Assembly (NCBI GenBank): GCA_016786465.1
Contig: JAEUWC010000020.1
Location: forward strand, 1-64,000
Length of the DNA: 64,000 bases
DNA from: Bdellovibrionales bacterium
Lineage (GTDB): Bacteria; Bdellovibrionota; UBA1018
Direction of reading: 5' to 3'
A model generated the notes under the pieces. It was not told the DNA's origin. It made no database searches and saw only the letters and a list, made by a program, of their open reading frames with translations. The position numbers and the translations under genes were made by a program. Positions 31,552 to 44,700 of this stretch are shown here, piece by piece (positions within the stretch are counted from its first letter, which is position 1; each line of letters starts with the position of its first letter).

Positions 31552-33030
31552 TTACTTCAATTGACGTAGCGAGTCGGTAACCCAAACAAGAATGGGATGC
31601 GTGAAGATACTGAGCACCAAAAGTGGCAGGCCGAAGGAAACGAAAATGGACCATAGGCGTCGCGTCGCGACTCCGTTTTCCGCGACGCGGGCAGTGCTGA
31701 AATCTCCAACTAGCGCAAAACACAGTCTAGAAATCGCAATCCAGCTTAAAGCCCACGAAAAAAGCGCGACCGCGGCCAGAGCACCCCAGTGATGATCCAC
31801 CGCAGCGCCCACCAAAGAAAAGCGGCCAAAGAATCCCCCCAGCGGTGGGATCCCCACAAAGCAACCCAAGAACAGAATTAATGCGGCGCTTTCGCCTGTG
31901 TATTTGCGAAGCATTCCTTTCCATTCATCGATCTGATCTGTCGATGTTTCGTCCACGAAACGGGCGATGACAAAGTAACAACCCGAAAGGGCAAAAAGTT
32001 CGACCAACAGGGAAAAAAGCGTCGCGCCCAGCGCCTGGGTGTCCAAGACCAAAAGCCCCAGCAAAACAAATCCTGTTTGCGACACCACCAAGGAACCCAA
32101 AAGCCTTCTAGCCGAATTCTGGCGAACCGCCAGAACCGAACCAAAGACCAGGCTCAAGCCCGCAACCCAAGCCAAAATCTGTGGCCAAGGCAGCGCTTCC
32201 CAAGGGGTCCAAGCCGACGAAGTTTCATTATAGTTTGAAAACAAAGTGATCCAGATTCGAATCGCTGCCGAAAACCCGCCCACGCGTGTCGCCGTCGCCG
32301 CAAATGAAGAAATCGGCGTCGGAACACCCTGAAGAACGTCGGGCGCCCAGGTAAAACTGGGGAACGCCGCGAACTGAAAGCAAAGTCCGGAAGACAACAA
32401 AGCAAAAGAAGCCCAGGCCGAAAGCTTATCCAACGGATTCTTCTGCAGGGTTTCTCGAATCAAACTGAGCTGCGTTTGTTCAGTTGCCGCAAAAAGAACC
32501 AATACCCCCAACGCAAAGAGGACCGAAGCCAGCATCGAAAATCCAAGGAACTTGAACGACGCTTCAGTTGAAGAAACATTTCGAACCCCAAACGAACCCA
32601 AGAAATAAATCAAAGCGTTCGAAAGCTGAAATGCGACCCAGGTCAGAACCAAATCATTCGAAGCCGCAATCAAAGAATACGCCGCTGTGGATGCCACCAA
32701 GAAAGCCAGAAGTTCCGTCTTTCTTTCTGCAGGCACTTCTTTGGATCGGGTCACGTGAATCGTGGCCAACCCGGTCAGTACGATAAAGAAAAGCCGAAAG
32801 AACGTCGTCAGAGGATCAATCCAAATGACCCCGGAAAATGCGGATTTAATCTGAGGACCAAATCCCGCCGTCGCTAGAATCGTCTGAATAGCCGCACCCA
32901 AAAGGCCCAGAACCGCCGTCGCCGTGACCAAGCGGTAGCGTTCGCCGTAGTAGCCAATTTCGCTAAAAATCAGTCCGCCCACCGTGAAGGCCAAGAAAAG
33001 TTCGGGCAGTATGGCAATGAAATCTTCCAT
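31552..33030 (-). CDS. nuoN: NuoN-like subunit of second complex I set (divergent)
   Basis: 492 residues, about fourteen transmembrane helices. It aligns without gaps to the set 1 NuoN at the key sites, but the catalytic residues differ. SNDLVLTWVAFQLSNALIYF has Gln where set 1 has the TM5 Glu (FIALELMS). LCFQFAAFPSFTWAPDVLQG has Gln for the TM7 Lys and Phe for the His. FAATATRVGGF has Arg for the TM8 Lys. Fold and length are preserved, so the protein is under constraint but should not translocate protons in the known way. Last gene of the second set, 44 bases after nuoM2. Confidence 0.85.
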   Translation of the reverse strand: MEDFIAILPELFLAFTVGGLIFSEIGYYGERYRLVTATAVLGLLGAAIQTILATAGFGPQIKSAFSGVIWIDPLTTFFRLFFIVLTGLATIHVTRSKEVPAERKTELLAFLVASTAAYSLIAASNDLVLTWVAFQLSNALIYFLGSFGVRNVSSTEASFKFLGFSMLASVLFALGVLVLFAATEQTQLSLIRETLQKNPLDKLSAWASFALLSSGLCFQFAAFPSFTWAPDVLQGVPTPISSFAATATRVGGFSAAIRIWITLFSNYNETSSAWTPWEALPWPQILAWVAGLSLVFGSVLAVRQNSARRLLGSLVVSQTGFVLLGLLVLDTQALGATLFSLLVELFALSGCYFVIARFVDETSTDQIDEWKGMLRKYTGESAALILFLGCFVGIPPLGGFFGRFSLVGAAVDHHWGALAAVALFSWALSWIAISRLCFALVGDFSTARVAENGVATRRLWSIFVSFGLPLLVLSIFTHPILVWVTDSLRQLK

Positions 33031-33045
33031 CGGGCTTCAATTCAG

Positions 33046-33067
33046 ACCGAGCGCGATTCGGCTCGGT
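33046..33067 (-). repeat. Intercistronic hairpin between nuoM2 and nuoN2
   Basis: ACCGAGC (33046-33052) and GCTCGGT (33061-33067) form a perfect 7-bp stem with an 8-base loop in the only sizeable gap within the downstream half of the second set. No T-run follows, so processing, stability or attenuation are likelier than full termination. Confidence 0.6.
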
Positions 33068-33074
33068 TGATCTC

Positions 33075-34580
33075 CTACTTAATTGTTGAAAGCAAAGTGA
33101 GAACGGTTGGGCGGATCAAGTCGATCAGGGGCTTTGGATAAATCCCGAACCAGATGACCAAAAAGACCAGCGGTAAAAGGTAAAGCTTTTCTCGAAAATT
33201 CAAGTCTTCCATGACCGAGGAATCTTGAGCCTTCCCCAGAAAAACGTGACGATACATGGTAAAAAAGTAGAAGGTCGCCATGAAGAACGCGCCCACGGTC
33301 ACCACGACTGCAATCGGGTGAACAGAATAACTTCCCATCACCAAAAGTGAATGTCCGATGAAACCTGAAACGCCGGGAAAACCCAGAAGTGTCCCGGTCA
33401 TGATCGCTGCCACAACCGCTACACCCGGCGCCTGGACTGCAATTCCACCCAATGTTCCCGTGACTGTTGTTCCAGTTCCTTCCTTAAGAAAGTCAGTAGA
33501 TCCCTTTCTTTCGTTCAAGACATTGATGAAAAGTCCGAAGCCAGCGATTCCCAGCCCCAGCGACAAAAGCTGGAAGACCGCGCCAACGATGCCCACTGAA
33601 TTCAGGGATCCATAACCCACAAGCGCAATTCCCACTTCGCCGATACAAACAAACGATAGCAGGGTTCGAAGATTCTTTTGCGAAAGTGCTCCCAGTCCTC
33701 CGGCAATCAAATTCAAAAGACCCACCGCCACGATTCCCTGCGATGTCGCGGAAATCGTTTCAGGAAAAAGGGAAAACGAAAGCTTCACAAAAAGGTAGCT
33801 GGCTACCGCGGTCATGACTGACGAAACCGCGACGAAAACCGAAAGGGGCGATTGTTGCGCAAAAACCGTAAACCACCCGTGAAGCGGCCAGATCGGCGTG
33901 CGAAGCGCCAATCCTAAGCTCATCAGGCTGAACGCCAGCAGCGGAACCGGCAGATCCCAGTCCAAAAAGTGAAAGGTTTTTCCTGCGAACTTTCCTCCGG
34001 CCAGTTCCTTTAGTGAAAACGTGTGGGGTTCAAAGGAATAGTAAATCAGAATCAACGCACCAAAGAAGAAGGCGTTTCCAATCGCTGAAACCACAAGCGT
34101 TCTAAAGGATGCAGATTCACGGTCGTCTCCTCCCCAGATTCCAATCAGGAAGTACATCGGTACTGCACTTAGCGCCCAGAAGAAGAAGACCAAGAAAAGA
34201 TCCTGCGCGCAGACGGCCCCTAAAAGGGATGCCTGAAGAATCAAGAAAAGCGCGTGCATCCCGGCGACACCCTTTTTTTGCTTCCATTCTGCGGCGATCA
34301 AAACGGGCATGACCCACGAAATCAAAAGAACCAAAAGTGCATTCAATCCATCCATTCCGACTTCGTAGGTGATCGAATAGGACCCAACCCATGGAAGAAT
34401 TTCTACTGCTTGAAGATCACTTACCGCCGGGTCCATCCCCAGAATCAACGCTGTTCCGCAACATGCACTTAAGATGCTTGCAGCAAGCGCCGCCCATTTT
34501 CCCCGCCCCGGAAGAAAAATCTGAGAAATCGCACCCAAGAAGGGCAGAAAAATCATCCAGCTGATTAGGTTCAAACTCAT
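33075..34580 (-). CDS. nuoM: NuoM-like subunit of second complex I set (divergent)
   Basis: 501 residues. The subunit identity is clear from PMYFLIGIWGG, TPIWPLHGWF and the overall helix pattern. Key residues are changed relative to set 1: FFFWALSAVPMYFLI has Ala for the TM5 Glu (FWEAMLIPMYFLI), GLALRTPIWPLHGW has Arg for the TM7 Lys, the LPDAH motif is gone and the TM8 Lys position reads Ala in VMTAVASYLFV. It overlaps nuoL2 by ATGA. A membrane-arm structural role is inferred. Confidence 0.87.
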   Translation of the reverse strand: MSLNLISWMIFLPFLGAISQIFLPGRGKWAALAASILSACCGTALILGMDPAVSDLQAVEILPWVGSYSITYEVGMDGLNALLVLLISWVMPVLIAAEWKQKKGVAGMHALFLILQASLLGAVCAQDLFLVFFFWALSAVPMYFLIGIWGGDDRESASFRTLVVSAIGNAFFFGALILIYYSFEPHTFSLKELAGGKFAGKTFHFLDWDLPVPLLAFSLMSLGLALRTPIWPLHGWFTVFAQQSPLSVFVAVSSVMTAVASYLFVKLSFSLFPETISATSQGIVAVGLLNLIAGGLGALSQKNLRTLLSFVCIGEVGIALVGYGSLNSVGIVGAVFQLLSLGLGIAGFGLFINVLNERKGSTDFLKEGTGTTVTGTLGGIAVQAPGVAVVAAIMTGTLLGFPGVSGFIGHSLLVMGSYSVHPIAVVVTVGAFFMATFYFFTMYRHVFLGKAQDSSVMEDLNFREKLYLLPLVFLVIWFGIYPKPLIDLIRPTVLTLLSTIK

Positions 34581-36565
34581 AGAAGACCTCGTGTGACGAT
34601 CAGGGCCACCACCAAGGTGATCCCCGCAAAAAGGGAAAGGTACCAGTACTGCTGAAGCTTACCGCCTTGGATTCTTTGAACGGCCCAAGCCGCGCCCGCG
34701 AATCCCCGCGCCGTGCTCCATTCGATTCGCTTTCGAAGTTCCGAATCCGCACGTCCAAAACCCTGACCCAAAATTCGTAAGACCCATTTTGTGGCGCCGG
34801 GAATCGACTTCTTCCACAGAAACCCGTCGATCAAGTTTTCAACTGCTGAACCGAAGCGAACTAAAAGATTCATCAGTCCGTTACCCAGGCGGTCCATTCC
34901 AATTTGTTCAGAAATGAACCCGGCAAAGCGCGGGGATGACTGGACCCATTTTTCAAAGCGATCGGGGTTTCCACGAGTCATCCAGTAAGAAATCGCGAAA
35001 CTGAGAACGAAGACGCCCCAGTAGACGCCCATTCCTTCTGCGGAATTGGCGTCAAGCTGGATACTTTTTTGGCCAAAAAGTTGGTCCAAAAGCGAAACTG
35101 AAACCTGATCCATAAGGCCCGGAACAATTTCGCCGGTCATGGCCCCGGTCCAAATCCAAGCCATTCCCAAGATAAACAGGTAGAAAGGGCCCAGAGCCGT
35201 CATCCACTTTACGTAAACCGGCGCCGGCGCACCCGAAGCGGCTGGCTTGCTTCCAAAGTTCATCCGAAAGCCGCAGATGGCAACCATAAGGTGGGCCACT
35301 GAAAAGAAAGCCACGGCACCCCATCCATCTGACGCCAGAATCGCAAGGTAAGATTTTAGGAAACCCGGTGATGAAACAAAGCCAAAGAAGCCGGCAATCA
35401 GAAGACCGGAAATAAAAAGTGCGACCGTTGAAAAGGTTTCAGACGAAACCCGTGAACTGTCGGGTTCTGCGGTGGCCACTGACGAAAAGGAAAGGACCAT
35501 CGCGGCTGCCAAAGCAATCAGATAGGCCCCTAAAAGAATCGATGCCGTGATCCAAGCACTGGAAAAGAATCCCCCGGCCATGCCCAAACTAAGGACTGCC
35601 GCCATGGTCTGAAGAAAGTAAGCTTCCTTCTTCAGTTGCGACATCGCGGAAAGTGCCAAAAGAAATGCCGACGAAAGACAAACCCAACCCATCCAATGAG
35701 AAACACCGATTCCACGAAAAAGCGGATCCAGTCGAACCAAGGTCATCATCGCTACCAGAGAAGGAAGGACCACCCCAAAAAGGGTCCTTTTCACCAGTGA
35801 CTGGCGGCTGTTCATTTGGGACCATCCCAACCACGGAAAACCCCCAGACAAGAACAAAGTGCCCATCAACAAAAAGACACCGCCCACTTTGACCGCTATG
35901 GCGTTGGGATAGCTATCCAACCACTGAATCAGGCTTTTGTTCCAAGAAAGTGGAATTCCAGAACCGTGAACCATGACTGCGCCCACTACCAGAAGACCCA
36001 GGGCAATTCCTTTTTCCCGAATGAATCGGGTCGCCAAATCGGCTTCGCGTTCCAGTTCCCAATTACTTGAAAATGCGGTCCATCCCGAAAGAATGACCCA
36101 GCTTCCACCCAGTGCCAGCGTCCAGAAGTTTGCGGCGCTGGTGCAAAGAAGAACTCCCATGAAACCCAGAATCAGGGACGCATGCGATTTTTCAGGACGT
36201 TCTTCAAAGTGAAGAATTTCCTGATTGATCAAAAGAAGAAGAAAAATGATCGTCGCCAGACTCCAGACGGCCAGTTGGAATGGGTCTCGAATGAACGCAA
36301 TCGTCGGTCCCATTGGACCCGCGGCCTTATCTAGGTTTGCAGAATCAACCCAGCTTAAGGCCCAATGACTGACCGACCAACCCGCCTCGATCTGGACGCG
36401 CCAGGAAAGAATCAGGAAGGCCATCTGAACCACCATGAAAATCCAAACCAACCAATCGCCCTTGCGGGAAATTCGATCGCCAAAAAAGAAAAGCGTCAGG
36501 AAGAAAATCCATCCCAGAACAAATCCCGAAAGTGTGAATAGGTTTTCGACAGAAAGCGTTCCCAT
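34577..36565 (-). CDS. nuoL: NuoL-like subunit of second complex I set (strongly divergent)
   Basis: 662 residues, nearly the same length as set 1 NuoL, with many hydrophobic helices and a final single helix (YWYLSLFAGITLVVALIVTR) that matches the lateral-helix anchor. Assignment relies mainly on length, position between nuoK2 and nuoM2 and helix pattern. The FLGWEGVGLCSYLLIG signature is replaced by ALGGSWVILSGWTAF (no Glu), and the LPDAMAGPTPVSALIHA signature is replaced by LGWSQMNSRQSLVKRTL. It starts at an ATG two bases after nuoK2. Confidence 0.75.
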   Translation of the reverse strand: MGTLSVENLFTLSGFVLGWIFFLTLFFFGDRISRKGDWLVWIFMVVQMAFLILSWRVQIEAGWSVSHWALSWVDSANLDKAAGPMGPTIAFIRDPFQLAVWSLATIIFLLLLINQEILHFEERPEKSHASLILGFMGVLLCTSAANFWTLALGGSWVILSGWTAFSSNWELEREADLATRFIREKGIALGLLVVGAVMVHGSGIPLSWNKSLIQWLDSYPNAIAVKVGGVFLLMGTLFLSGGFPWLGWSQMNSRQSLVKRTLFGVVLPSLVAMMTLVRLDPLFRGIGVSHWMGWVCLSSAFLLALSAMSQLKKEAYFLQTMAAVLSLGMAGGFFSSAWITASILLGAYLIALAAAMVLSFSSVATAEPDSSRVSSETFSTVALFISGLLIAGFFGFVSSPGFLKSYLAILASDGWGAVAFFSVAHLMVAICGFRMNFGSKPAASGAPAPVYVKWMTALGPFYLFILGMAWIWTGAMTGEIVPGLMDQVSVSLLDQLFGQKSIQLDANSAEGMGVYWGVFVLSFAISYWMTRGNPDRFEKWVQSSPRFAGFISEQIGMDRLGNGLMNLLVRFGSAVENLIDGFLWKKSIPGATKWVLRILGQGFGRADSELRKRIEWSTARGFAGAAWAVQRIQGGKLQQYWYLSLFAGITLVVALIVTRGLL

Positions 36566-36566
36566 A

Positions 36567-36866
36567 TTAACCTTTGAGATTCTCCAATTCGTCTAAAGTC
36601 GCCTTAGTGCGAAGGTAGAAAAGACGTACTGAAAACGAAAAGCCACCAATCAGCGGAATTACGCCGCCTAAAAGAAAAATCAGGCCCAAAAGCTGCCCTT
36701 TGACCAAGACTTCGGATTCCTTTCCTACAACCACCGCGGCAAGTGCAGCACCCAGTGCCGTGGTTTGAAAGCCTAGAAGAATCCCGAGAATGGTTCGACG
36801 CGTGAGCATCGCAAGGATTCCCAACGAGAAAAGTCCGATCGCAGTCATTAAGGGTGCCTGATTCAT
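36567..36866 (-). CDS. nuoK: NuoK-like subunit of second complex I set (divergent)
   Basis: 99 residues, three hydrophobic helices. A gapless alignment with set 1 NuoK is anchored by the shared Arg-Arg-x-Ile-Leu at the start of TM2 and Gly-Gln before TM3. It shows Gln for the TM2 Glu (LLGFQTTALGAAL against LMCIELMLNAVNL) and Pro for the TM3 Glu (GGVIPLIGG against VAAAESAVG). Both buried carboxylates that carry protons are therefore absent. It overlaps nuoJ2 by four bases. Confidence 0.8.
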   Translation of the reverse strand: MNQAPLMTAIGLFSLGILAMLTRRTILGILLGFQTTALGAALAAVVVGKESEVLVKGQLLGLIFLLGGVIPLIGGFSFSVRLFYLRTKATLDELENLKG

Positions 36867-37411
36867 GGAATGGGTTCCCCTTTGCGGCGCGGACGGGCGA
36901 TGACCCCCGAGGCCACCAAAATCAAGAAAAGTGAAAAACCAAGAAGTTCCAAAGTCAGAAAGTGATGACTGACCATTTCGTCACCCAATAGGTCATTTGC
37001 TGGACGTTTCTGTTCGGTGGGTTCACTTGGTGCGGGAAGTTCCACAACCTTAGGAGCGCGATGAGATTCACGGTAACGGATTGCGTTTTCGATTCCGGAA
37101 TAGATGAAGTAACCCATCACGGCAACCGTCACTAAACCCACCACCTTCTTCACGATGGCTTTGCGATCTTCGTCGTTGGATTCGGAACGAAATTCACCAA
37201 ACATCACCGAATAAAAGACGAATCCAATGGTGGTCGTTGTCGAAATAATCCAGACCGTGACGGCCAAGAATTCAGACCCCAAGTCTAAAGCGACCCCGCC
37301 CATTCCCAAACCACAGACCCAAAGAGCCAAAATGGCGCGACGAATATCGTGTGTCCAAGATGAAATCAGCGCCGAAACCAAGGTGACTGCGCAACAGATC
37401 CAAGTGATCAC
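36863..37411 (-). CDS. nuoJ: NuoJ-like subunit of second complex I set (divergent)
   Basis: 182 residues with about five hydrophobic helices, the last being FLTLELLGFSLFLILVASGV, very close to the equivalent TM5 of set 1 (LPFELTSVLLLVGIVGSV). The TM3 hinge motif VYAGAIMVLF is replaced by WIISTTTTIGF, so the Tyr and Gly of the pi-bulge are lost. It starts with GTG at 37411, overlapping the nuoI2 stop (GTGA). Confidence 0.75.
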   Translation of the reverse strand: MITWICCAVTLVSALISSWTHDIRRAILALWVCGLGMGGVALDLGSEFLAVTVWIISTTTTIGFVFYSVMFGEFRSESNDEDRKAIVKKVVGLVTVAVMGYFIYSGIENAIRYRESHRAPKVVELPAPSEPTEQKRPANDLLGDEMVSHHFLTLELLGFSLFLILVASGVIARPRRKGEPIP

Positions 37412-37947
37412 AGAACCACCTCGCCATCATGTTCTTCTTCTTGCCGGGCCTTTGCCCACTTCACCCTTTGTTCTTGGGTGACGCGTCCACGACCAAAGCT
37501 GGCGACCAAATCCGTTGACGCATAGACCGCACTTTCAAATTGATGACTGTGAATCAAGGACTGGGGCTGACAAACTTCAACGCAAAGACCACAGAAAGTG
37601 CAGCGTGCGGAATCAATGTCGAACACGGATACCCAGACTTTCTGAGAATCGGGTCCCTTTTCATTTTCAACGGTGATGCATTTAACCGGACAAATCTGTT
37701 CACAGTCTCGGCAACCCGTGCACCGTTCAATGTCGTTAAAAAGAAGACCCCTGGATCGTGCTGGTAGATCTTCTGGCGTTTTAGATGAAACCGGGTCTGG
37801 GTACTGTTCCGTGACTTCCTTTCTTAATTCACCTGACTTGAAACCCACCAGGTACGGAAGTGAAGTCTTTACCGACCCTAGAACCGACGATAATCCCCGG
37901 AAAACAGCTTTCAGATACTGGGCTAAACCCGAAAAAACGGAAATCAA
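37408..37947 (-). CDS. nuoI: NuoI-like ferredoxin subunit of second complex I set
   Basis: 179 residues if started at the TTG at 37947, which overlaps the nuoH2 stop (TTGA) and has GGAGG six bases upstream; a TTG at 37983 is open but has no such signal. Both [4Fe-4S] ligand sets are complete: IERCTGCRDCEQICPVKCI and ARCTFCGLCVEVCQPQSL (Gln before the Pro in the second). Electron transfer through clusters equivalent to N6a/N6b should therefore work, in contrast with the damaged proton path of the membrane subunits. Confidence 0.9.
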   Translation of the reverse strand: MISVFSGLAQYLKAVFRGLSSVLGSVKTSLPYLVGFKSGELRKEVTEQYPDPVSSKTPEDLPARSRGLLFNDIERCTGCRDCEQICPVKCITVENEKGPDSQKVWVSVFDIDSARCTFCGLCVEVCQPQSLIHSHQFESAVYASTDLVASFGRGRVTQEQRVKWAKARQEEEHDGEVVL

Positions 37948-39038
37948 GGTGACCCTCCGTTCTTTGCGGTCCAAAATGCCCAAATCGCAGTACCTGCAAG
38001 TGCTGCCAACGAAAGCGGGCTAAGAACTTTCCAAGACAAATCCGTGATCTGATCGGAACGAATCCGTGGTGTCACACGCGCCAAAATCGACACGAAAATC
38101 ATCAGCCCAAAAGTCTTCATCAGAAGCAGAACGGATTCGACCATTTGGATGGCAAAGCCTGAAGTGTTCTCGGTTAGCCAGGCTTGCACACCATCGGGAA
38201 CTTCCCAACCACCTAAGAAAAGCACCGCAGTGATCGTTGCCCAAAGAAAGAATCCGTAGTGACGTCCCAGCCGAAAAAGGGCCAGCTGGGTGCCGTGAAG
38301 GTGGGATGAAACGCCCCCGTGAATATCCTGAACGGAAAGTCCTCCGTCAAACGGAGCGATTCCCATCACAACCAAACCACTGGCTAGGAAGCAGAAAAAT
38401 GAAATTGGCTCGAACGGGCTATCAAAAACACCCCAAGCTAGAATTCCCGCGCCCTGGGAATCCGCAATGTCGCTCCAGAAAAAACTTCCCGCACGAACCC
38501 CGACCGCAATTAAAGCCGCGATCGCGGGCAGGGCCCCGGCCAATGCTTGTGAAGCCGCGCGAATTCCACCAAACCAACCCGGAATCGACTTTTGGCTTAG
38601 CCCCAAAAGCATCGTTCCCATCGCAATGACCAGTGACGCCCAAAACGGAAGAAACGCGCTCATTTCGGTGTTGATCAAAAGAAGCAAGGATCCCAAAGGA
38701 AGAACAGCGACGGTCGAATAAAGCGCCATCGTATGAAGACCCAGCCAGATCTTTTCGTTCATCCCCAGCTTCGAATCGACCTGTTTCTGAAGCAGTTTCA
38801 CCAAATCGGCAAATGGCTGAAGAAGTCCCAGGGGTCCTACGCGGTTAGGTCCGACGCGCGCCTGAAGATCGGCGCCGACTTTTCTAGCTAAATAATTCAC
38901 CGCCGCGCCGCTGGGTACGACCACCAAGGTGTAAACCAAGGACAAGACCAAAACGGCTACGACCGATTCCGGCAAGAAATCGGGAAGTCCAATGATCTGC
39001 TTCCACTTTTCTGCCCAGTGGTTTGCTTCAGGTGTCAT
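37944..39038 (-). CDS. nuoH: NuoH-like subunit of second complex I set (divergent)
   Basis: 364 residues with about eight transmembrane helices. The N-terminal signature is well kept (LQARVGPNRVGPLGLLQPFA). The acidic-axis segment is not: set 1 FAETNRLPFDLPEGESEIVA reads LVVMGIAPFDGGLSVQDIHG here, and HLEYSSMKF reads SHLHGTQLA. Five of six glutamates are replaced and one is Asp. The ATG overlaps the nuoD2 stop (ATGA). It should still be able to build a quinone-chamber-like fold. Confidence 0.87.
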   Translation of the reverse strand: MTPEANHWAEKWKQIIGLPDFLPESVVAVLVLSLVYTLVVVPSGAAVNYLARKVGADLQARVGPNRVGPLGLLQPFADLVKLLQKQVDSKLGMNEKIWLGLHTMALYSTVAVLPLGSLLLLINTEMSAFLPFWASLVIAMGTMLLGLSQKSIPGWFGGIRAASQALAGALPAIAALIAVGVRAGSFFWSDIADSQGAGILAWGVFDSPFEPISFFCFLASGLVVMGIAPFDGGLSVQDIHGGVSSHLHGTQLALFRLGRHYGFFLWATITAVLFLGGWEVPDGVQAWLTENTSGFAIQMVESVLLLMKTFGLMIFVSILARVTPRIRSDQITDLSWKVLSPLSLAALAGTAIWAFWTAKNGGSP

Positions 39039-40159
39039 CGGTCGACCTCGGCAATTCCTAGATCCAGGCTTGCAAGAATCACGGGAAGATCTTCCATGCG
39101 GCTTCCGCGAAGAATTTCAGGAAGAATTGCAATCGCGGCCATTGAAGGAACCCGAAACTGGACACGGCTGGGGCGATCGCCTCCTTCGCTGACCAAATGA
39201 CAACCTAGGGTGCCCCGAGGGGATTCGACTTTAATGTACGCTTCACCGGGTTGTGGCTTGACTGGCTTCGACACGGGCTGGCTTAAAAAGGATCCGCCAG
39301 GAATGGATTCAATCACTTGCTTTAGAATGTCTGTACTTTGACTGATTTCGCGAAGGCGAATCAGAAAGCGACTATGTACGTCGCCATTTCCATCATTTTC
39401 AACCAGCACGGGAAAATCCAAAAGCTGGTAACCACTGTAAGGTTCTGACTTTCGCGTATCCGTTGAAAAGCCCGAAGCCCTTGCGTTAGGCCCCGTCAAC
39501 CCATGTGCCAGAATCTGTTCCCGGGAAATCACGCCGATTCCGCGAGATCTTTTCAAGAAAGCGTAATTGAACGAAAAAAGATCGTTGTATTCTTTCAGGC
39601 GAATTTTCAGAACTTCGCAAATATCCAAGACGCGCTCTAAGAATCCGTCAGTCACATCTGCGGTGACACCGCCCAGACGAAAAAAATTCAGTGAAAACCG
39701 CGCGCCTGTTAGAAGCTCAAACTGATCCAGGATTCTTTCACGATCGCGAAGCGCATAGTGAAAAAGGGTTTCGGCCCCCACGGCTTGCGCCATTCTCGCT
39801 AGAAATCCCAGGTGGCAGGAAACCCGATTCAGTTCGTTGACCAATACGCGAATGCTTTGTGCGCGAACCGGAACTGCAATCTCGGCGACTTCTTCGATCG
39901 CAAGCGCAACCGCCATTTCGCCAAAAGACGCCGCTTCTGGATCCAGTCGATCCGCATACATCAATGCCGATGACCAAGGGTGCAGTTCAAACGTCTTTTC
40001 AAGGCTTCGATGAATGAACCCAATTTCTGTTTTCGTTTCGGCGATGACTTCTCCGTCTAGGTTCAAATTCAAACGAAACGGGCCAGGAAGCGCCTGGTGG
40101 TAGGGTCCGATTCCCCAGTACGCCAAATCGGTCGCCAAGGATTCACCGTGAGTGCTCAT
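39035..40159 (-). CDS. nuoD: NuoD-like subunit of second complex I set (quinone ligands missing)
   Basis: 374 residues. The family is clear from LTGARFSLNFFRLGGVTADV, LTGPNARASG, DVHSRFLIRLREI, SPRGTLGCHLVSEG and the last residues LGIAEVDR; there are no NiFe-hydrogenase Cys pairs. The two residues that bind the quinone headgroup in studied complexes are changed: HPAMHG is HQALPG (second His to Pro) and the Tyr of DRLNY is Pro (YADRLDPEAAS). It overlaps nuoC2 by ATGA. Confidence 0.9.
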   Translation of the reverse strand: MSTHGESLATDLAYWGIGPYHQALPGPFRLNLNLDGEVIAETKTEIGFIHRSLEKTFELHPWSSALMYADRLDPEAASFGEMAVALAIEEVAEIAVPVRAQSIRVLVNELNRVSCHLGFLARMAQAVGAETLFHYALRDRERILDQFELLTGARFSLNFFRLGGVTADVTDGFLERVLDICEVLKIRLKEYNDLFSFNYAFLKRSRGIGVISREQILAHGLTGPNARASGFSTDTRKSEPYSGYQLLDFPVLVENDGNGDVHSRFLIRLREISQSTDILKQVIESIPGGSFLSQPVSKPVKPQPGEAYIKVESPRGTLGCHLVSEGGDRPSRVQFRVPSMAAIAILPEILRGSRMEDLPVILASLDLGIAEVDR

Positions 40160-40737
40160 GGTTCGACCCCAAAGGCTGCGCCCATTCCCGTTTCAACCGG
40201 CGGACTGAAGTCGGATCCGTATTCATCCGGGATGCTGTGCCCGACAGGTTTAAAATGTGAAACCCCGTAAAAGGAAGTCGGAAACACGTAGGATTTCCGA
40301 AGCGGGTACCCAATCCAGTCTTCTGGAAGGACGTATCGCCCGGCAATCTGATTCCCATTGAAGACCACGCCAAAAAGGTCTGAAATTTCTTTTTCAAATT
40401 CGCGCGCCATCGGCCAGATCGTCGTGACTGAATCGATCGAAGCCGTAGAATCCGCGTCCTTTGGCGTTAACGATGCTCGAAGGACCAGGCGGGTCGGTGA
40501 ATCCAAATCGCGGATAAAATAGGAAAGAACCAGGGCTTGATTCAATTCCATGGCAGACAAGTTTTCTAGCCAGGTCATCTTGAAGCTCACGTCTTCAAAT
40601 AGTTTTCTTGCGGCGGCACGAATAGACTTTGCTTACACCCAAACGGTCGTGATCTCGGATTTCCCGAAGGGTTGCATTTCCAGGAAACCGGGAAGTTCAA
40701 CGGCTTTAATTTTTCGCTTCAGCTCGTTGATTTCCAA
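40156..40737 (-). pseudogene. nuoC: NuoC-like subunit of second complex I set, interrupted by in-frame TAA
   Basis: A frame of 193 sense-equivalent codons runs from a TTG at 40737, which has AGGAG eight bases upstream inside nuoB2, to the stop at 40156. This is exactly the length of the set 1 NuoC. It is interrupted once, at codon 35, by TAA (40635-40633), with no frame change: ...SEITTVWV, stop, AKSIRAAARKLFEDVSF... Both sides read as NuoC. A restart at the GTG at 40590 or ATG at 40578 would give a 140-144 residue protein holding the conserved block (EKEISDLFGVVFNGNQ, PEDWIGYPLRKSY). Nonsense mutation, read error, re-initiation and read-through are all open. Confidence 0.82.
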
Positions 40738-41191
40738 GAATCTTCTCCTGTAGGGCGATGATGCCGTTCATGATGGCTTCGGGCCGAGGCGGACAGCCGG
40801 GTACATAAATATCCACTGGAATGATGCGATCCACGCCTGGAACTGCCGAATAACTGAATTCCGGCGAAAAAGGACCGCCGCAACTGGCACACGAACCCAG
40901 CGCTAGCACGTAACGGGGTTCAAGCATTGAATCATAGATTTTCTTTAAGTTCGGAACGGCTTTGTAAGAAACCAATCCCGAAATGATCAAAAGGTCGGAC
41001 TGACGTGGGTCGGGCTGCGGAATGGCCCCGAAGCGTTCCAAGTCATAACGAGCGCCCATGGTTTGCAGAAGTTCGTCTGCACAACATCCCGATCCGGTCG
41101 AAGTAAACCAAAGGGATCCCGCCCTGGACCAATCCAAAAGTTTCCCAATCGTAGAAAGGTAGATGCCGCTGACGGCGCTACTTGCGCTCAT
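40706..41191 (-). CDS. nuoB: NuoB-like Fe-S subunit of second complex I set
   Basis: 161 residues from the ATG at 41191, preceded by AAGGAA. All four ligands of the N2-type [4Fe-4S] cluster are present: the Cys pair in TGSGCCADELLQT, Cys in ALGSCASCGGPF and Cys in YVPGCPPRPEA. The segment DPRQSDLLIISG is like set 1. It overlaps nuoA2 by 14 bases and nuoC2 by about 30. It is the best conserved member of the set. Confidence 0.93.
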   Translation of the reverse strand: MSASSAVSGIYLSTIGKLLDWSRAGSLWFTSTGSGCCADELLQTMGARYDLERFGAIPQPDPRQSDLLIISGLVSYKAVPNLKKIYDSMLEPRYVLALGSCASCGGPFSPEFSYSAVPGVDRIIPVDIYVPGCPPRPEAIMNGIIALQEKILGNQRAEAKN

Positions 41192-41699
41192 CCAAGTTCC
41201 TTCCTTCGTCGTGAAAAGTTTGAATCCAATCCAAGTCACCCTTCCTGGCCGAATACAATAGGCCCAAGCCTGCGAACCCAACCATGGTCAAAACCGCAAT
41301 CAAAACCTTCTTTTCCTGGGATGAAACCAAGATTCCCACGAGCGGAATCAGAATCACCATCAATGTCAGCAAAAGAACGGCTGCGTTTGCGCTTAAGAAA
41401 AAGCGCGTGTTCATCCGCCTGCCTAAAGCGCCATCCGAACGGTAAACCGTAGGCGAAGAAAACTGCGAGGCTCCGTCTGAACCTGGATTTGAAAAACCCG
41501 AAGAATCCATCCCCCCGACTTCCGCAGTTCCGACCGCGGAATTCACTGACGAAGGATCCATCTTCTGAGCCGCTCCCTTTTTTCGAAGCGACTTGCCGAA
41601 GATTTCTAGGACGAGCGGGATCAACAGCGAACTGATCGCTGACAAAAAGATCACGTAGTACTTGGTCCACCCGCTTGAATCGGGCACCCAGCCGTCCAT
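41178..41699 (-). CDS. nuoA: NuoA-like membrane subunit of second complex I set (unusual loop)
   Basis: 173 residues from the ATG at 41699, which follows GGAGGG; the frame is open further upstream but that part covers the promoter and the start of mfd. Identity is supported by position ahead of nuoB2, three hydrophobic helices and the end motif SARKGDLDWIQ, like RKGALEW in set 1. The first loop is about 60 residues of Ser/Gly/Asn-rich sequence and lacks the conserved Glu-Cys-Gly. The TM2 segment with FDVEA is also absent. The assignment is therefore tentative. Confidence 0.65.
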   Translation of the reverse strand: MDGWVPDSSGWTKYYVIFLSAISSLLIPLVLEIFGKSLRKKGAAQKMDPSSVNSAVGTAEVGGMDSSGFSNPGSDGASQFSSPTVYRSDGALGRRMNTRFFLSANAAVLLLTLMVILIPLVGILVSSQEKKVLIAVLTMVGFAGLGLLYSARKGDLDWIQTFHDEGRNLDERK

Positions 41700-41730
41700 T
41701 CTTTTACCCTCCGTGGAAAAAGCCTCAAAA

Positions 41731-41771
41731 AGGGTATCGACGTTGAAAAGTAGTGTCAAGGTCGCTAGATT
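41731..41771. promoter_or_regulatory. Overlapping divergent promoters for nuo2 and mfd
   Basis: Minus strand: TTGACA (41759-41754), 17 bases, TACCCT (41736-41731), upstream of nuoA2. Plus strand: TTGAAA (41743-41748), 17 bases, TAGATT (41766-41771), upstream of mfd. The two sets overlap, so polymerase binding to one should hinder the other. Confidence 0.6.
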
Positions 41772-41797
41772 GCTAAAGATTTGCTTCACCCCGTCGT

Positions 41798-44700
41798 ATG
41801 AATTCTTCACAGACTGACACTCCAGCTCTGCCGCTCGAATCCCTTTTCGAAAAACTCGATCGGGGCTCAAAACCGTTCCGCGTTCGTGGGGCGGAAGGTT
41901 CTTCTCGCGCATGGATCTTGGGGCGATGGCTTCTGTCCCAAAAAAGTCCATCCGGCAAAACGGTGGTCGTGATTGTCGATTCAAATGACTCGGTCCAACG
42001 TTGGACCGAGGAACTGGAAAGCGTCCGCGTCATCCAACAGCGGTTGGCATCGTCGTCGAGAACTCTTCGCGTTCTTCCCTTTTTGGGATGGGAGGGGTCC
42101 CCTTACTTAGGAATTTCACCTTCGTGGAAAGTTCGTCACTCGCGGGTAGCAACCCTTGCAAAATCGATGAAACCAAAAACGAACGAAGACCGCGTGATGG
42201 TCGCCAACTGGGAAGCGCTGATGCTACCCACAGTTCCCGTTGAAACTTGGCGAAAGAATCGATTTGAATTTCGGGTCAAAGAATCTTTTTCACGGGAAGA
42301 CGTGCTTCAGCGACTAGCCCATTTGGGCTACCTGCGAATGGATTCCGTCGAAGACCCAGGAACCTTCAGCATTCGCGGTGATCTATTGGATCTTTACATC
42401 CCCGCAGAAGATCAACCTGTCCGCATCGAGTTCTTCGGAGACGAAGTCGAAGGAATTCGCTTTTTTGATCCGACGACTCAAAGGTCTTCCAAAGACCGCT
42501 TGGATTCTATCGAAGTGACCCCTTGCCGCGAAGTTCTGATTCTTGATTCACCTACACTTTTGCGTGAACGATTGAAAGCGGCCGCCGACGAACGCGGGAT
42601 TCACCGAAGCATTCGAGACCCCATCATTCAGTCCATTCACGAGCGGATTTATCTGGATTCATCCGAAATCTGGGCACCCTATGCGTACGCTCAGCCTTCA
42701 TCGGTCTTGGATTATTTGGGCGATGCTTTCGACGTCGTCTGGGATTCGCAGTTTTCGTGTGAACAGTCATTTCAGTCGCGCCTGAAGCGCTACGAAGAAG
42801 ATTTTGAAAAGCCGGTTCCGGGAACTGAATCTCGGTGGATTCTTCCGTCCCCAAAGGAAATCTTCGAATCAGAACTGGTTCGGCGGGATCGCCTGAAATG
42901 GACGGAAAAAACACGCCTTCACTTGGATTCTCTTGAAGTATTGGATGCCCAATCCGCATCCAATACCGAAGACTTCCCCGTCGAAATTCAATCTGCTCGA
43001 ATCTTTTCGGAAGACGTTAAAAAAGACTTCGGTTTAGCCACCACCCGACTTCTTTCCTTGAAAGAAGGAGGGATCCAAGTCGTCCTTACGGCTTCATCGG
43101 CATCCCAGAAAGATCGCCTACAGTTTCTGATCCAGCAAAAACTGGGAAAGGCCGCTTCTGAATTTCCCGTGACGGAAGTTTCATTGTCGTCTGGATTCAT
43201 TTGGCCGTCTGAAAAAGTTGCCCTAGTCCCTGAATCTGATTTTTTTGGACAAAGGGTGAAGAACTCGCTCAAGGCAGCAAAATCCAAGAAAAAAGATTCG
43301 GCCGCAAAGGACTGGTCCGGCGTTCAGAATATAGACGCCCTTCAGGTGGGTGATGCCGTGGTTCACATCACGCATGGAATTGGTCGCTACCAAGGAATTA
43401 CTCGGTTGGGCAGCGATTCCCAAATGGACTTTCTAACCCTGGAATATTCGGGCGGCGACAAACTTTACATCCCAATTTACCGAATCAATTGCGTCCAAAA
43501 GTACCTTGGGTCTGGGCAAGACGCCGTACTGGATAAACTGGGCGGCCAAGGCTTCGAAAAGGCCAAACAAAAAGTTCGAGACGCCGTCAAGAAGCTCGCT
43601 GTGGATTTAGTGAAGGTCTACGCAGAACGCCAGCTTCTAAAAGGAACGAAGTTTTCTGGCCGCGATCCGCTTTTTGCAGAATTCGAAGAACGTTTTCCTT
43701 TTGATGAAACCCCGGACCAGGCACAGGCGGTTGACGATGTGATTGGGGACCTTCAGGCTGGAAAGCTCATGGATCGCCTGGTTTGCGGCGACGTCGGTTA
43801 CGGAAAAACAGAAGTCGCAATTCGCGCCGCATTTAAGGCTGCGTCCGAAGGGAAGCAGGTTGCCGTACTGGTCCCGACGACCATTCTGGCCCACCAACAC
43901 GAGCAATCTTTTCTTTCGCGTTTTAAAGGCTACCCACTTCGAATTGAATCCCTTTCGCGTTTCAAGCCGGCCAAAAAGCAAAAGGAAATTTTAGAGGACC
44001 TGAAGGCTGGAAAGGTCGATGTCGTCATTGGGACACATCGGCTTCTTTCAAAGGACGTCGTTTTCAAAGACTTGGCTTTGGTGATTGTTGACGAAGAACA
44101 CCGCTTTGGGGTCGAGCATAAAGAAAAGCTGAAAGCGATGAAGACGTCAGCCCATGTTCTGACGCTGACTGCGACCCCGATTCCACGGACTTTACACATG
44201 GCTTTAAGTGGTCTTCGCGAAATGAGCTTGATTGCAACGCCGCCGGTAAACCGGCTTCCGATCAAGACTTTTGTCGCCAAACAAGAAGATTCCGTGATCC
44301 GACAAGCAATCGAATCGGAACTTGGACGTGGGGGACAAGTCTTCTATGTCTATAATCGCGTTCAATCGATTTATGAAATTGCCGAAAAGATTCAACGCTT
44401 GGTCCCAGCAGCCAAAGTTGGGGTTGGGCATGGACAAATGGCCGATTCCGAATTGGAAGACGCGATGCTGGCGTTTTACCAGGGTCGAACGAATGTCCTG
44501 GTTTGCACGACGATTATCGAATCGGGGCTGGATGTTCCTTCTGCAAACACTTTGATTGTTCAGCGTGCCGACACCTTCGGTCTGTCGCAACTTTATCAGA
44601 TTCGGGGCCGCGTGGGGCGTGGTCAGAATCGCGCTTTTGCGTACTTTTTGATCCCGGGTGAAACACTTCTTTCCCAGGACGCACAAAAGCGCCTGGAAGT

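Follow-up and report, generated by a model that had tools for sequence, protein, structure and literature searches.

An in-frame TAA in nuoC2 of a second complex I operon: recent nonsense mutation or assembly consensus error, with no sign of special decoding

A second complex I operon with an interrupted nuoC2

Complex I of an 11-subunit type, without nuoEFG, has been described in Desulfitobacterium hafniense and as NDH-1 (PMC11238625). An operon of this type was found in the window, which is the whole stretch of 64,000 nucleotides analysed here (positions 1 to 64,000 of contig JAEUWC010000020.1, from the Bdellovibrionales bacterium assembly GCA_016786465.1). This operon, set 2, shares with the D. 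hafniense complex and cyanobacterial NDH-1 the order B-C-D-H-I-J-K-L-M-N without E, F and G; no nuoE, F or G lies between D2 and H2 (order B2 C2 D2 H2 I2 J2 K2 L2 M2 N2). The best solved sequence by profile for NuoC2 was the NdhJ of cyanobacterial NDH-1 (6hum_J).

Two complex I operons lie in tandem at 19603-41281 on the minus strand: the 11-subunit set 2 and, immediately downstream of it, set 1, which is complete with 14 subunits. This tandem is conserved, as set-2 and set-1 nuoC are located about 10 kb apart on one contig in many genomes of the family. nuoA2 is probably situated just upstream of set 2, in ORF 41178-41984. Searching the genome with PF00361 detected NuoM2 and NuoN2 but not the NuoL2-like protein (34577-36565, minus strand), which on this ground looks unusually divergent. 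The features of the operon around nuoC2 are as follows.

31552..41281, minus strand: set 2 operon, nuoB C D H I J K L M N, without E, F and G (gene order, profile matches)
40706..41281, minus strand: nuoB2 frame, intact, its TAA end lying inside the start of nuoC2 (frame reading)
40156..40737, minus strand: nuoC2, a 193-codon frame opening with TTG and closing with TGA, with an internal stop at codon 35 (frame reading, alignment, PF00329 match)
40633..40635, minus strand: in-frame TAA, codon 35 of the nuoC2 frame (alignment with set-2 relatives)
39035..40159, minus strand: nuoD2, intact, its ATG overlapping the nuoC2 TGA as ATGA (frame reading)

The nuoC2 frame runs from TTG at 40737 to TGA at 40158-40156 and contains a single internal stop over 193 codons. 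This TAA, reported at 40633-40635 in the first-pass annotation, was confirmed as codon 35 of the minus-strand frame. PF00329, the Pfam NuoC family, covers 40285-40644 unbroken with one TAA within (82.2 bits against a cut-off of 22.5); profile positions 1-119 of 124 were matched, above the curated cut-off. Comparison with family members by tblastn and MAFFT aligned the sequence before and after the TAA in one frame, and no NuoC-like sequence was found in the other two minus-strand frames at nuoC2. A hidden frameshift was ruled out on these grounds, and the earlier description of NuoC-like sequence on both sides of the stop without a shift was upheld. The accompanying remark that the frame has the same length as the set 1 NuoC was correct as a count (193, when the latter is counted from an internal ATG), but the equality is a coincidence, since complete set-2 NuoC frames of relatives vary between about 156 and 187 aa and the ends of the two proteins do not correspond.

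An AlphaFold2 model of the nuoC2 frame, with the stop read as Glu, was confident, at a pLDDT of 87 (about 97 around codon 35), and Foldseek matched it to complex I NuoC/NDUFS3/NdhJ chains with E down to 4.9e-10. Codon 35 sits between a strand (30-34) and a helix (36-48) of the predicted fold. The likeness to NuoC (TIGR01961 / PF00329) consists of the match over the family domain and the same predicted fold; with TIGR01961 the part after the stop scored 58.6, below the cut-off of 122.45, the query being divergent and partial.

Codon 35 in relatives and the age of the lesion

Relatives were sought in 35 genomes of the same family, none of them from the same genus, and set-2 NuoC was present in most (best identity 48%). 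All 12 named relatives found were metagenome assemblies, with the record labels Oligoflexia, Bdellovibrionales, Bdellovibrio, Bacteriovoracaceae or bacterium. A first contig scan with the protein from the window found no relative, and IMG/VR, searched for this site, gave no match. In genomes G007, G008, G016, G028, G029, G033 and G034, NuoC/NuoD-like sequence also occurs at a third or fourth locus elsewhere.

In an alignment of 25 set-2 NuoC proteins, residues 1-34 were conserved together with the start and its ribosome-binding site, and the part upstream of the TAA is therefore coding.

40742..40750, minus strand: AGGAGAAG, ribosome-binding site of the TTG at 40737; CAGGAAAA in relatives at the corresponding position

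The TTG and its AGGA site coincide with the start position in relatives, which is mostly GTG with a CAGGAAAA site and overlaps the end of nuoB. This bears out the original choice of TTG 40737, with its good ribosome-binding site, as the start; a wrong start was ruled out, as the TTG and its site match the starts of relatives and codons 1-34 are coding. The nuoC2 start codon is TTG (40735-40737, minus strand), whereas most relatives use GTG.

Comparison of the stop position in sister genomes had been proposed as a check. When run on the family relatives, it gave a sense codon in 25/25, mostly Glu (20/25; GAG in 14, GAA in 6), with Asp in 4/25 (GAT in 3, GAC in 1) and Gly in 1/25; a stop at codon 35 was found in none of the 25. 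The nearest relative reads VWVEAKSI and nuoC2 reads VWV*AKSI, and Glu is invariant at codon 35 within a 13-sequence alignment (A2). Stops flagged inside the set-2 genes of G026, G029 and G021 were dismissed, their frames being open from start to TGA; the flagged match in G026 ran beyond the gene's own end. The nuoC2 TAA is a premature stop, with a sense codon in relatives and one frame on either side. As relatives carry Glu, Asp or Gly at this position, GAA in six, the TAA would most simply have arisen from an ancestral GAA, one base away, by a single G-to-T change.

No second stop or shift was found in nuoC2, and the NuoC residues R87, W108, E115, F122-G123, P145 and R147-K148 are kept. The mean identity of NuoC2 to relatives fits the family relation with NuoD2 (residual z -0.11), and long-standing decay was rejected on this normal divergence. 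Decay of nuoC2 appears to be absent or very recent, given that there is no other lesion and that divergence matches that of NuoD2. The remaining nuo genes checked in both sets were all open, an internal stop occurring only in nuoC2. When the 190-kb contig was compared with 75 kb from the nearest relative, 43 ORFs had a counterpart there; in their roughly 22,000 aligned codons the nuoC2 TAA was the sole in-gene stop, the other flagged stops falling either within antisense ORFs or ahead of the start of nuoH2. Likewise, matches in the genome to ABC (45) and response-regulator (50) domains contained no in-frame stop. On these data the lesion is isolated and recent, or not real.

Read-through and re-initiation

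Four options had been listed for the TAA in the first-pass annotation. A nonsense mutation and a read error were both retained, and read-through and re-initiation found no good support.

Read-through or recoding, by a suppressor tRNA or a programmed signal, would give full-length NuoC2 and would agree with a frame that is open and conserved either side of the TAA. However, a UUA anticodon was present in 0/39 tRNAs, all of which had standard anticodons (39 places located via the Rfam model, then ARAGORN; the assembly is about 97% complete and a missing gene is conceivable). TAA is also the normal stop of nuoB2, nuoK2, nuoN2, nuoA1, nuoD1 and nuoJ1, and genome-wide reassignment was rejected because other genes terminate at TAA and no in-frame stop occurs in the 95 matches to conserved domains. 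RNA past the stop was no more structured than shuffles (z 0.78), on which a structured read-through signal was rejected, and a glutamate-conserved site offers no reason for recoding. Neither a stop in the 25 relatives nor a cognate suppressor among the 39 tRNAs was found. Read-through of the TAA is highly improbable, and there is no evidence for a new mechanism at this codon.

Re-initiation following a short ORF is known in bacteria, and a candidate site lies 15 codons past the TAA.

40588..40590, minus strand: GTG, codon 50, the earliest standard in-frame start beyond the TAA; a weak candidate site for re-initiation

This GTG is in frame and opens a 144-codon ORF, and re-initiation at it could occur by chance. 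Against its use, no properly spaced ribosome-binding site precedes it (TTTGAAGAC-GTG), and relatives have no start codon there. According to the model, the product from codon 50 would be without helix 3-13, strands 18-23 and 30-34 and helix 36-48; because two helices and two strands would be lost with the first 49 residues, it is unlikely to fold as NuoC. That the stop is real and a shorter NuoC2 made from GTG 40590 leaves the complex working is therefore very unlikely. Fainter still is the prospect that the stop is real and fixed and the codon-50 NuoC2 still assembles, the N-terminal unit of NuoC being dispensable in a complex free of the NADH module.

Origin of the stop and comparison with known systems

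The nuoC2 TAA is either an ordinary recent nonsense mutation or an assembly consensus error. We favour, with modest confidence, a recent nonsense mutation of a formerly working gene, with loss of NuoC2. Until very recently nuoC2 would have functioned normally, encoding a subunit of a second complex I of the 11-subunit type, and a single base substitution would then have changed the conserved Glu codon, most simply GAA, to TAA at codon 35. Translation from TTG 40737 would end there and give a useless 34-residue peptide. The nuoD2 start and the nuoC2 stop overlap in ATGA, which makes translational coupling of nuoD2 to nuoC2 probable, and from this overlap and the early termination in nuoC2 we infer that NuoD2 would probably be lowered as well as NuoC2 lost. 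The set 2 complex would likely be non-functional in the sampled cells; the cell would keep a 14-subunit complex I, since the adjoining complete set 1 is intact.

A wrongly substituted base in the consensus would produce the same picture, and the less probable reading, though one to be taken seriously, is that the organism has an intact nuoC2 and the TAA arose through faulty sequencing or consensus calling or through the mixing of strains in the assembly. It is consistent with a TAA a single base from GAA, a codon class seen in relatives, with the lack of further decay in nuoC2 or the operon, and with the conservation in the family of the second operon and its spacing from set 1; the assembly may itself be a metagenome assembly, as are all 12 named relatives. 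The assembly, however, is not visibly error-rich, as the aligned codons of the contig show neither a further in-gene stop nor a change of frame. Substitution errors in short-read consensus are rare, at or below about 1e-5 per base, and seldom create a stop, whereas bacterial genomes usually carry premature stops in a small share of their genes. The literature was searched for premature stops in metagenome assemblies, with no result. The intact rest of the operon suits either a very recent mutation or an error, and the family-wide conservation of operon and residue speaks for selection against the nonsense allele. The balance between nonsense allele and consensus error tips modestly towards the allele, because premature stops are usual in bacteria and stop-making consensus errors are rarer.

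The gene at 40156..40737 should be annotated as an interrupted nuoC2, pending confirmation on reads. If the stop is real, one lineage would be switching off a family-conserved second complex I by a single base, with the complete copy intact.

nuoC2 resembles a recent single-lesion pseudogene, a nonsense allele in a bacterial operon, in having one premature stop, an otherwise intact sequence and typical divergence; it differs in that its stop is known from an assembly consensus and could be a consensus error. Compared with the complex of D. hafniense and NDH-1, set 2 is distinguished by its location directly upstream of a complete 14-subunit operon and by the interruption of its nuoC2.
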